NCBI GenBank assembly: GCA_003054695.1
Contig: QAZA01000039.1
Location: 248,001-312,000 of the forward strand
Direction: 5' to 3'
Length of the DNA stretch: 64,000 nt
Origin: Verrucomicrobia bacterium LW23
GTDB taxonomy: Bacteria > Verrucomicrobiota > Verrucomicrobiia > Methylacidiphilales > UBA1321
Positions 6,439-24,673 of the stretch are shown piece after piece. Each line of letters begins with the position of its first letter. Positions within the stretch are counted from its first letter, which is position 1. The notes under the pieces were generated by a model. The model was not told the origin of the DNA, did no database searches, and saw only the letters and a list, made by a program, of their open reading frames with translations. A program made the position numbers and the translations under genes.

Positions 6439-7734
6439 TCAAATCATCGCGTTCTTGATCGACACCAGCTCCCGGGCCATTTTCATCCAGCCGCTGGGGG
6501 GCAGGCCCTCCACGTACACGCCTTTATTGTCAAACTGCAGGGCCACGCGCTTCCAGCGGGGCAGGTGGGGGAAGGCGTCGCTCATCAGGCGGCTGATTTC
6601 GTCGTGGCTGGTGGTGGGGGGGAGGTTGAGTTTCTTCAGCACGCGCTGGTGCGTGTCGTCGTACAGGGCGCGCATCACTTCGTCGCGCAGATCCGCCCGG
6701 CGGTAGAGCTTGGCCATGCTGGAGACAAACTCCATCGTGGCGCGCATCTGCTCGCGCGGCAGCGGCATAATCAGGCCAAAGCGCACCATCTGGGACGTAA
6801 TGAAGATAAGGATGCCGACGAGGATCTGCAGGCCCGCCATGCGCAGGCCGGGCAGGTTCAGCACTTCCGTGGCCTTGTAGGTAATGCGGTAGCCGTGGTG
6901 ACCTTCCTCAAACCATATGTTGGGGGGCATGGGCCCAACGGCGGCGGTGCCGGTGACGGCGGGGAGCTCGTTGGCGGAGGTGGGCGCCACGGGGCGCAGG
7001 AGATCCAGGAAAAGCCGGAGGTTGTCCGCCGCGCCCACCAGGCCGTTATCAATCAGCGAGGGCGAGGAGACAAACGTAATAGTGCCCAGGCCCACGGCCA
7101 GACGCACCGCCACCACCTCGCCGGAGCTGGAGGTGAGCAGCAACGTCCCCTTGGGTGCCGCGGGCGGGCCGTGAAACAGCTCGCCAACCTCCAGCAACAC
7201 GGGCTGGATGACCCCCGAGTAGGTGCTGCCGGGCGGGGCAAACGCCTCCATGGTGTTGCGTTTGTCGGGCTGAAGCAGCAGGGCGCCGCGCTCAAAAATG
7301 CCCTCCTGCCGGGGCTTGTAGCCCGGGGGCACGCCGTAGCCGCTGCGGCGCAGGATGGATCGGCCGTCGTCATAGCGTGTCAGCGGGCCCAGGGCGACGA
7401 AGTGGTTGCCGGCCTTGATCCACTGGAACAGATAGTCCAGCTCGCTGGCCACAAACGGCTCGCGCTGGCCGTAGCCGCTGCGGCTAAACACCATAACGTT
7501 GCCTGTGCCGGTGTTGGGAAGCTCGCTATAAGTGGTGCGCCACCGTTCCACGGGCCAGCCCATCTCCTGCAGAGTAGTGTAGACGGCCTTGGTGCCGCGC
7601 TGCTCCGGGTTAAACGTGGAGGGCAGCCACAGGTCGCGGTCCGGGTTGCCGGGGCGGCCAAACAGAAAGCCCAGCACAGCGGCCACGCCTACCACGGCCA
7701 GCAGAGCGCGAATATAGAGGGAATCGGACTTCAT
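6439..7734 (-). CDS. DUF4350-like membrane protein
   Basis: This 431-aa protein has an N-terminal membrane helix (about residues 7-25) followed by a segment typical of DUF4350: a GTKAVYTTLQEMGWPVERW stretch and a later LFQWIKAGNHFVAL stretch. A second helix lies near residues 300-325. DUF4350 proteins are usually encoded beside DUF4129 proteins and a MoxR ATPase; the DUF4129-like gene is directly upstream here and overlaps by four bases (ATGA), so translation is probably coupled. No MoxR or DUF58 gene is present in the window. The biochemical role of the family is unknown. Confidence 0.75.
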   Translation of the reverse strand: MKSDSLYIRALLAVVGVAAVLGFLFGRPGNPDRDLWLPSTFNPEQRGTKAVYTTLQEMGWPVERWRTTYSELPNTGTGNVMVFSRSGYGQREPFVASELDYLFQWIKAGNHFVALGPLTRYDDGRSILRRSGYGVPPGYKPRQEGIFERGALLLQPDKRNTMEAFAPPGSTYSGVIQPVLLEVGELFHGPPAAPKGTLLLTSSSGEVVAVRLAVGLGTITFVSSPSLIDNGLVGAADNLRLFLDLLRPVAPTSANELPAVTGTAAVGPMPPNIWFEEGHHGYRITYKATEVLNLPGLRMAGLQILVGILIFITSQMVRFGLIMPLPREQMRATMEFVSSMAKLYRRADLRDEVMRALYDDTHQRVLKKLNLPPTTSHDEISRLMSDAFPHLPRWKRVALQFDNKGVYVEGLPPSGWMKMARELVSIKNAMI

Positions 7735-8648
7735 GAGGCGGAAGCGGAAGAGGGAGAGGACGCGGTGGCGGCGGTTGCGGAGGGCGCGGCGGAGCCGGCG
7801 TCGGCCAGGCGCATCAGCTGGGTCTCGGCTTCGTCCACGCGGTCGCGAAAGGTGGTCCAGGCGGGCTCATCCAGCCGCGCCTCGCCGTAAATATAGAGAT
7901 CGTAGGTGCGCACCAGGCTCAGCAGCAGCTCGCGCGTCGCCTCGGCGGGGTGCAGGCGCAGAATCTGGTTGGCATACTCCCAGTTCGTCTGCGTGCGGTC
8001 CGCCTTTACAATCTCTTTGGTCTCCAGCCCGGAGAGGAATTTGCGCCAGCGGAACAACATGGCGTCGCTCCACGCCCCCGAGCTGACGGCCTGGGCGATG
8101 CGCGGGTCGTAGCTCTCCGGCACCGCAAAGAATTTGGTGCCCACCTTGGCGCTGGTCATATCCAGCAACGGCATGCGCGAGCCCTTGAAGACACGCCACA
8201 CCCAGTACCCGGTGGCGACAAATACACCGACCAGAATGGCCCACATGACAAAATACGTAAAGCGGTGCAGCTGATCCGCATACGGAAAGCCGGCCAGCGT
8301 CTCCGGCAGGGATTGCAGCCAGTTGAAGAACAGGTCCTGCAGCTTCGTAAAGGTATCCTGCTCCCGTTTGCGCATAAACTCCGGGCGCGCCAGCACCGCC
8401 TCCAGGCGGGACTCCACCGCGTCCAGGTTTGTCACCAGCGGCGGGCGTGGGGCGGCCTGGGGTTTGTCCGGCTGGGGCGCGCCGGGGGTGGTCAGCGGTG
8501 TGTCCTCGGCGGTAACTGCGGATTGGCGCGCGGCGGAGTTCTCCTGCGCGGCGGCGGATGGCATGGCGACGGGGGCGGCCATCAGCAGCGCGGCGGCCAG
8601 AGCGGCCAGGGCGCGCGTCGGCATCAGGGCTGTGGAGCGGCGGCACAT
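7731..8648 (-). CDS. DUF4129-like membrane protein
   Basis: This 305-aa protein has an N-terminal signal-like segment ending near AAAQ, a long extracytoplasmic stretch, one membrane helix (about 165-188, FVMWAILVGVFVATGYWVW) and a cytoplasmic C-terminal region. The C-terminal pattern, with a conserved-looking DRTQTNWEY followed by RTYDLYIYGE, fits DUF4129, a domain often found with transglutaminase-like and MoxR operons. Its start overlaps the upstream stop by one base (TGATG), preceded by GGAGG, which indicates tight coupling. Function is not established. Confidence 0.7.
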   Translation of the reverse strand: MCRRSTALMPTRALAALAAALLMAAPVAMPSAAAQENSAARQSAVTAEDTPLTTPGAPQPDKPQAAPRPPLVTNLDAVESRLEAVLARPEFMRKREQDTFTKLQDLFFNWLQSLPETLAGFPYADQLHRFTYFVMWAILVGVFVATGYWVWRVFKGSRMPLLDMTSAKVGTKFFAVPESYDPRIAQAVSSGAWSDAMLFRWRKFLSGLETKEIVKADRTQTNWEYANQILRLHPAEATRELLLSLVRTYDLYIYGEARLDEPAWTTFRDRVDEAETQLMRLADAGSAAPSATAATASSPSSASAS

Positions 8649-22386: not shown

Positions 22387-23430
22387 ATGCCCGATCCCGC
22401 CCGCATCCTCATCGTCAAGCCCAGCGCCCTTGGCGACGTTGTGCAAGCGCTGCCCGTATTGACGGGGCTGAAGCGCCGCTGGCCGGCCGCCCGCATCGAC
22501 TGGGTCGTCAACGACAACCTCGCCGGAATCCTGGAGGGCCACCCGTGCCTGGACGACGTGCTGCTCTACCGCCGCAAGCGCTGGACCCGCCTGAGCGCCG
22601 CCGGGGAGATGCGCGACTTTGCCCGGCGCATTGCCGCCGCGCGCTACGATATCGTCCTTGATTTGCAAGGACTTGCGCGCAGCGGACTGATGACGTGGCT
22701 GACCGGCAGCCCCCGGCGCATCGGCCTGCGCAGCGCAAGAGAAGGCTCGCGCCTGGCCTACACGGAGATCATCGACGACACGAAGGAAGCCAACGCCTCG
22801 CGTCGCTATCTCCTTGCGCTGCAGCATCTTGGTATTGCGGATTGCCAGCCGCACGATTTCGGCCTCACCGCTACCGTCGCGCTTTCGCCCCCCGTGCAAC
22901 GCGCGCTGGATGCCGCCGCCGCTGCCGCGGCGCAGAGACAGGGCCCTTGCAGCAGCCTTATCGTCATCCACCCCTACAGCCAGTGGCGCACCAAGCTCTG
23001 GCCGTGGCGGCACGTGCAGCAGCTGGTGGATCTGGCGCCGGCGCAACCCTTTGCGATTGTGGGGGAAGGGCCGTGGTTTCCCATCCACGGCCCCCATGTG
23101 GCGGATGTGCGCGGCTGCCTCTCCCTGCGCGAGCTCATTGCCGTGCTGGCGCGGGCCGACGCCGTTCTCAGCACAGACAGCGGCCCGGCGCACCTGGCTG
23201 CGGCGCTCGGGCGGCCCACCCTTGCCCTGTTTGGCGCGACGGACTGGCGCAAGACCCGGCCGGCCGGTGCCAAAGTGGCGGTAATGACGCATGACGTTTT
23301 TTGCTCACCTTGCCTAAAACGCCATTGTCGCAACAGCGTTCCCATGGCGTGCATGGCGGGTATGGAGCCCATACATGTTTTCGGGCGCTTGCAAGAAATG
23401 ATTTCCGGCATGACTGTTTATCATTCGTAA
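22387..23430 (+). CDS. lipopolysaccharide heptosyltransferase-like glycosyltransferase (GT9)
   Basis: This 347-aa protein matches family GT9, which adds ADP-heptose to the LPS inner core on the cytoplasmic face of the inner membrane. It opens with RILIVKPSALGDVVQALPVL, has YDIVLDLQGLARSG, IHPYSQWRTKLWP near the donor site, and STDSGPAHLAAALGRPT plus LFGATDWRKTRP near the C-terminus. CSPCLKRHC is also typical. The start is the ATG before this opening. The last 40 codons are clearly less GC-rich than the rest and merge into an AT-rich intergenic region. It may be cotranscribed with the transporter 58 bp upstream. Confidence 0.9.
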   Translation: MPDPARILIVKPSALGDVVQALPVLTGLKRRWPAARIDWVVNDNLAGILEGHPCLDDVLLYRRKRWTRLSAAGEMRDFARRIAAARYDIVLDLQGLARSGLMTWLTGSPRRIGLRSAREGSRLAYTEIIDDTKEANASRRYLLALQHLGIADCQPHDFGLTATVALSPPVQRALDAAAAAAAQRQGPCSSLIVIHPYSQWRTKLWPWRHVQQLVDLAPAQPFAIVGEGPWFPIHGPHVADVRGCLSLRELIAVLARADAVLSTDSGPAHLAAALGRPTLALFGATDWRKTRPAGAKVAVMTHDVFCSPCLKRHCRNSVPMACMAGMEPIHVFGRLQEMISGMTVYHS

Positions 23431-23890
23431 TGCTGGGTGGTGGTTGGATAAGTATTTGTGCATGAGTGTGTTGTGAGTGACTGCATTGCTAAAGCAATGG
23501 CAAAGTGCAAGGCTTTGGGCGGGGCTGGAAAAAGTGTTTACATTTATGCACGCGTGGTAAAATCGAGACAGGCTGGCAAGGGAAAAGTGCACTTTTTTCG
23601 TAGTCGATGCGTTTTTCAGCCGGGTCGAAGGATGAGAAAATCTGATTTTCGAAAAATTTTTTGCAGCCCATTTGGATACAAAACAGCGTCGAAAAATCGG
23701 GGTCACATTAGAATAACTGATGTTATAAACTCTTGTGGTTTTAACACGTTACATTATTACGCAAACGGATGCTAAAAAACGTCATAAGAATCACTAAAAC
23801 GCTTCTCTACCACTTTGCCGCATTTTCGTCACTTGACTTGGCCCGCAAATCGCTTATTTCATACGGCATAACCCAAGGAGTAACACCATT
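23431..23890. other. 460-bp AT-rich regulatory region
   Basis: No gene is supported; the plus-strand frame 23458-23775 has poor composition. The DNA is markedly AT-richer than its surroundings. AAAAGTGCACTTTT at 23583-23596 is a perfect palindrome followed by T residues, and GAAAATCTGATTTTC is another small hairpin next to a T run; either could end the heptosyltransferase transcript. Promoter-like words are TTTACA (23537) with TAAAAT (23558), and TTGACT at 23833 ahead of the next gene. Confidence 0.55.
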
Positions 23891-24673
23891 ATGGTCGCTA
23901 AAAGCAATCGCAGTTGGACAAGTCAGAATGTGATCGAAGAGATCCAGGCCTGGCACAAAGCAGAAAAACCCCTTTACTCGCACTTCATGCGCCAGAACTA
24001 TCAGGAGCTTCTGGCGGCGGGTATCCGCTACTTCGGCGCCTGGCGCAATGCCGTGGAAGCCGCCGGCATTGGCTACGACGCGGTGCGCAAGTACCGTGAC
24101 TGGTCCAAGAGCCGCATCATCAGCACCGTGCGCGAGCTTCAGAATCAGGGCGTGGACCTCTCGTTCCGCTCCATGATGCTCTCCAAGTACGCCCCCATGG
24201 TGTACGCTGCTATTCGCCCCAACCACTTTGGCAGCTGGAAGGCCGCCCTGGCCGCCGCCGGCCTGGCCCCTGAGGAAATCTACCGCTACCGCAGCTGGGA
24301 CGACGACCTCATCCTGGCCGAGATCCGCCGCCTCAAGGACTCCGGCGCTGACCTGAGCTCCAAAAAGATGGACGAGACCTCCAACCCGCTGATCGCCACC
24401 GCCCGCCGCCGCTTTGGCAACTGGGGCGCCGCGATCGAGCGCGCCGGCCTGGATTATGACGCCATCCGCCGCCGCCGCCGCTGGACAAAGGACCTCATCC
24501 TCGAGGAGATCACCCGCCTGAAGGACGAAGGCGCCGACCTGCGCAGCGGCGAGATCCGCCAGCATCACCCCGCCCTCTTCGCCGCCGCCTGCAAGCCTCG
24601 CTTCTTCGGCAGCTGGGGCAAGGCGCTGTCCGCCGCCAACGCGGTGGTTGCCGAGGAAGAAGCCGCCCTCTAA
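23891..24673 (+). CDS. protein of four homing-endonuclease-associated repeats
   Basis: The 260-aa protein consists of four tandem repeats starting at Trp9, Trp71, Trp136 and Trp198, each 62-65 residues long. Each has a first helix (for example DLILAEIRRLKDSGADLSS), a middle helix, and a closing FGSW or FGNW followed by an Ala-rich helix and a basic run such as RRRRR. This is the pattern of the HNH/homing-endonuclease-associated repeat, a helix-turn-helix-like DNA-binding unit, but no nuclease domain is present. The protein is basic and probably binds DNA. A strong AAGGAG lies ten bases before the ATG and strong codon bias suggests high expression. Function is unknown. Confidence 0.8.
   Translation: MVAKSNRSWTSQNVIEEIQAWHKAEKPLYSHFMRQNYQELLAAGIRYFGAWRNAVEAAGIGYDAVRKYRDWSKSRIISTVRELQNQGVDLSFRSMMLSKYAPMVYAAIRPNHFGSWKAALAAAGLAPEEIYRYRSWDDDLILAEIRRLKDSGADLSSKKMDETSNPLIATARRRFGNWGAAIERAGLDYDAIRRRRRWTKDLILEEITRLKDEGADLRSGEIRQHHPALFAAACKPRFFGSWGKALSAANAVVAEEEAAL

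Follow-up and report, generated by a model that had tools for sequence, protein, structure and literature searches.

The window analysed here, a 64 000-nt stretch of a contig from Verrucomicrobia bacterium LW23, contains a gene for a basic protein of 260 aa (computed pI 9.6, net charge +9) that follows a GT9 heptosyltransferase gene and has an upstream region of its own, 460 nt long, with a promoter-like element (Table 1). Pfam assigns the protein to the homing endonuclease associated repeat, PF18780.6 HNH_repeat (E 1.3e-23), with matches in all four repeats and a score of 83.5 bits that exceeds the cut-off of 26 threefold. No HNH, LAGLIDADG or other domain rises above the Pfam cut-off, and the NCBIfam and PADLOC scans, nuclease domains included, return no match. 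The original prediction of a protein built only from four such repeats, free of any nuclease domain, is borne out by these searches; the repeats start at Trp9, Trp71, Trp136 and Trp198 as proposed, and the FG(S/N/A)W signature is found as FGAW, FGSW, FGNW and FGSW in repeats 1–4.

Table 1. Features of the repeat-protein locus, in window coordinates
Feature	Position	Strand	Residues (aa)	Basis and remarks
GT9 heptosyltransferase gene	22387..23430	+		Pfam PF01075, E 9e-34; upstream neighbour
Putative alternative sigma-70-like promoter, overlapping, TTGACT-N16-TATTTC	23833..23860	+		Read from the sequence and alignment
Sigma-54-type −24/−12 element, TGGCCCGCAAATCGCT	23839..23854	+		Upstream alignment; scans with shuffles and control genes
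Shine-Dalgarno, AAGGAG	23875..23880	+		10-nt spacer; read from the sequence
Gene for 260-aa repeat-only protein	23891..24673	+		ORF with ATG start; PF18780 match; order-wide homologues
Repeat 1	23909..24100	+	7-70	Repeat alignment; invariant Q38-E-L-L-A-A, R46-Y47
Repeat 2	24095..24295	+	69-135	Repeat alignment; invariant D89-L-S-F-R, M103-V-Y-A, I108-R109
Repeat 3	24290..24481	+	134-197	Repeat alignment; invariant D154-L-S-S-K, M160, L167-I-A, R172-R-R-F-G; single-repeat AlphaFold2 model
Repeat 4	24476..24652	+	196-254	Repeat alignment; invariant P227, L229, C234-K235, F238

Each repeat runs from its Trp through a long helix 1, a short helix 2, helix 3, the FGxW motif, helix 4 and a short final helix to an Arg/Tyr-rich linker that leads into the next Trp, the three linkers reading RKYRDW, YRYRSW and RRRRRW. 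The repeat length of 62–66 aa sets the period of the array, and this period, the extra helix, the R[KR]xRxW-like linker, the lack of a nuclease and the status of single-copy core gene distinguish the window protein from PF18780 in general. Per-position conservation, computed over 45 members of the order, identifies a set of positions common to all repeats (W, L, G, FGxW and A) that is likely the core of each unit. Beyond this set each repeat has invariant residues of its own, mostly from helix 2 to helix 3: QELLAA...RY in repeat 1, DLSFR...MVYA.IR in repeat 2, DLSSK.M......LIA.ARRRFG in repeat 3 and P.LFAAACK..F in repeat 4, with the strongest constraint on repeats 2 and 3. Such differing sets would suit units that each read a separate, conserved part of a target, though the same pattern would also come from a fixed protein or RNA partner.

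AlphaFold2 predicts an all-helical fold for the whole protein (pLDDT 84, pTM 0.35) and for repeat 3 modelled singly (pLDDT 87, pTM 0.74); because of the low pTM of the whole model, the relative placement of the repeats is undefined in it. Foldseek finds no significant match in the PDB to either model, and sequence and profile searches of the PDB yield nothing credible. With VIA-align, repeat 4 of the whole model aligns with numerous DNA-binding domains of the TetR family, at best with Z 5.8, rmsd 4.5 and 64 residues, a Z within the range that VIA-align itself rates uninformative or unreliable; the single-repeat model gives nothing at Z ≥ 2 among 37 chains. The resemblance of repeat 4 to the TetR-family or homeodomain-like helix-turn-helix (HTH) is thus weak, unaccompanied by a sequence match and not significant, and what repeat 3 shares with uS15-type ribosomal proteins, at Z about 3, is at noise level. 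Helical repeats are present in the models, but a significant HTH fold match is not (TetR-type likeness at Z ≤ 5.8). The missing structural match is not evidence for a new fold.

Proteins made only of these repeats are already known from haloarchaea and a viral contig. Haloarcula marismortui WP_011222312.1 (238 aa, plasmid) and a protein of viral contig L076 have, like the window protein, four repeats and no other domain above cut-off, and are about 25–31% identical to it. In two HNH homing-type endonucleases (L003, L065), by contrast, three PF18780 repeats lie N-terminal to an HNH domain that the window protein lacks. The statement that such repeats elsewhere sit beside HNH or LAGLIDADG nucleases is therefore incomplete, given that proteins of repeats only exist as well. 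Other arrangements occur on plasmids: PF18780 repeats followed by a C-terminal Cro-type HTH_3 domain in Brevibacillus (L125:2057-3436), and a long array of 14 PF18780 stretches in an 824-aa hypothetical protein of Bacillus subtilis (L127:2137-4611). Our literature search found no functional study of the PF18780 repeat, and only one paper naming it (PMC8078820), which gives just a contact-based model in a list.

Of 60 relatives, 59 carry the gene, among them all 28 good genomes, essentially in single copy, and its product is 53–81% identical across the Methylacidiphilales (Verrucomicrobiota), as compared to 39–57% for the adjacent GT9 protein. A phylogenetic tree recovers families f9, f4, f2 and f8 each as one group, and all family labels fit with 11 changes, the minimum; this grouping of the large families argues for vertical descent; long branches leave the deep branching order unsure. 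The best reading of these sequence comparisons is that of a vertically inherited, near-universal and slowly evolving core gene of the order. No second close copy was found in the LW23 genome; that genome does encode a distant 587-aa protein (L145:5836-7599, + strand, contig C17) with several degenerate PF18780-like repeats, for which Pfam reports repeats only and in which a putative Ros/MucR-like zinc finger, CRICGYSAGRLSHHIVKDHQMSTKAYTAQYPGAEL, can be seen by eye.

Elsewhere in the class, as far as sampled, only G063 has a close homologue (54%), and G083, from another family, has copies at 36–37% identity. One of these copies (L093:9515-10573, − strand), a protein of 352 aa made only of repeats, was read as having some five or six of them, with an R-rich linker like that of the window protein; a second locus of this genome (L094) encodes a further relative. 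Among 197 genomes from a second class of the phylum, 49 give a match, for the most part to repeat-only homologues of ∼200 aa (e.g. L068, L069 and L111) that carry a similar linker motif and reach E values as low as 1e-50 against the profile of the family. These homologues (families f61, f66, f77, f85, f86 and f119; mostly one per genome) differ from the window protein in having three repeats, in the lack of a sigma-54-like element, for which none was found before their genes, and in occurring in several copies in one genus, g215 (G485, G511, G428), where other genera mostly have one; they share no neighbours across families. Phage homologues gave no match, plasmid homologues are distant only, and no member of the family above cut-off is found in 14 named control genomes.

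With the genome's own ribosomal operon as reference, the codon adaptation index of the gene is 0.736, inside the ribosomal-protein range of 0.56–0.81 and second among window genes of at least 150 aa (median 0.555), and 26 of its 27 Arg codons are CGC, in keeping with the strong codon bias noted originally. The ribosome binding site had been called the best in the window, a ranking that is not supported: it is good, but the gene at 7731-8648 (− strand) has AGGAGG at a spacing of 6 nt, with the proviso that start calls are crude. In the upstream alignment most close relatives lack a clear Shine-Dalgarno sequence before this gene, so that the site is not a conserved feature.

In the family to which the window belongs, conservation of the non-coding DNA 5′ of the gene is highest in the block TTGGCACGAAAATCGCCTA, which has a GG-N10-GC layout and a TGGCACG core; the corresponding element in the window, with its first base 52 nt 5′ of the start codon, is conserved in this family both in position and in sequence. 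This layout and core form the sigma-54 promoter consensus. We scored sigma-54 likeness with fixed weights (maximum 20) in 43 upstream regions and before 258 other genes of these loci taken as controls, the pattern having been suggested beforehand by the f1 alignment. Scores of at least 16.5 occur in 60% of the upstream regions and 6% of the controls, and scores of at least 18 in 35% and none, respectively; the resulting p of 1e-11 is inflated, as the upstream sequences are related, and by family medians five of nine families pass (binomial p 1e-4). The distance of the element from the ATG differs between families (−40 to −197); four families fail by median, and no such element was found within 200 nt in f3, f4, f5 and most of f8. 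The gene for sigma-54 itself, rpoN, is present in LW23 (contig C9, E 6e-60) and in 50 of 60 relatives. In the window, the element lies between the two hexamers of a possible sigma-70 promoter. We also considered the motif as an operator with many sites and rejected this, as the LW23 genome has the extended motif here and just once more, with one mismatch; being nearly confined to this gene, it looks like a promoter element and not a regulon-wide operator. From these comparisons, the gene is probably expressed from a sigma-54-type promoter in several families of the order. Titles and abstracts of the literature on Methylacidiphilum sigma-54 or on abundant DNA-binding hypothetical proteins held nothing relevant. 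The features that are new relative to known repeat-only proteins are the near-universal core-gene status in the order, the repeat-specific invariance and the probable sigma-54-type promoter.

The fusion of these repeats to HNH nucleases and to a Cro-type HTH domain, together with the charge and the helical units, makes it very likely that the 260-aa protein binds nucleic acid. DNA is the more likely ligand than RNA. An RNA-binding protein, e.g. one associated with ribosomes or mRNA whose helical repeats wrap RNA, would suit the basic Arg/Tyr-rich linkers and the ribosomal level of codon bias, and could draw on the faint uS15 resemblance of repeat 3; as that resemblance is at noise level and the repeat family keeps company with DNA nucleases and HTH proteins, we consider this unlikely. 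Single copy, retention across the order and biased codon use speak for a housekeeping regulator or nucleoid protein, and our preferred reading, held with somewhat more confidence than doubt, is a vertically inherited, abundant, putative DNA-binding regulator or nucleoid protein of four helical units, possibly expressed by sigma-54.

The original suggestion of a nucleoid protein or extended-site regulator thus fits better than a nuclease relic or mobile gene, given the order-wide single copy, the tree that follows families, the basic charge, the helical repeats and the repeat-specific invariance, even though no significant HTH match backs it. A homing-endonuclease fossil, or a derivative that has lost the nuclease, with continuing ties to a mobile element, would account for the same repeats in the HNH nucleases of relatives; with GT9 adjoining in most loci examined, strong conservation of a single copy, a tree in line with taxonomy, no close phage homologue found, no nuclease domain and a distribution that is not patchy, it is highly improbable. 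Across the order, no neighbour is better conserved than the GT9 gene (17 of 23 sources, namely the window and 22 loci), which usually lies directly upstream and is codirectional; this could suggest a regulator specific to this lipopolysaccharide gene or to other local genes only. We regard such a local role as quite improbable, as neighbours are not conserved around the three-repeat homologues of the second class, the gene is preceded by an upstream region of its own with a promoter-like element, and codon bias at the ribosomal level is unusual for a local regulator. An operon was likewise considered and not adopted, GT9 alone being widely conserved, and within the order only.

For a DNA-binding regulator or nucleoid protein, the mechanism that we infer, with DNA as ligand and with the geometry, abundance, sigma-54 dependence and regulatory role set out here, would be as follows. 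A tandem array of four small helical units, connected through Arg/Tyr-rich linkers, would bind DNA, the third helix of each unit probably laid into the groove, and the four together may recognise a site that extends over a few tens of base pairs. The protein would be made in quantity, in several families probably from a sigma-54-type promoter, and may act as a global regulator or chromosome organiser. A more speculative extension, which we put forward tentatively and think doubtful as it stands, is that an ancestor of the Methylacidiphilales (and, for the three-repeat form, an ancestor of another class of the phylum) domesticated the DNA-recognition repeats found in homing endonucleases, giving rise to an abundant global DNA-binding protein in which each repeat reads its own fixed few bases and which is driven by a sigma-54 promoter. 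If true, this would be a regulator acting across the whole chromosome, of a kind not known from model bacteria. If the protein binds DNA as proposed, the whole order would depend on a protein class that has no member above cut-off in the 14 control genomes, and its four repeats, with fixed and differing residues near the putative recognition helix, would offer a natural test of unit-by-unit DNA reading.
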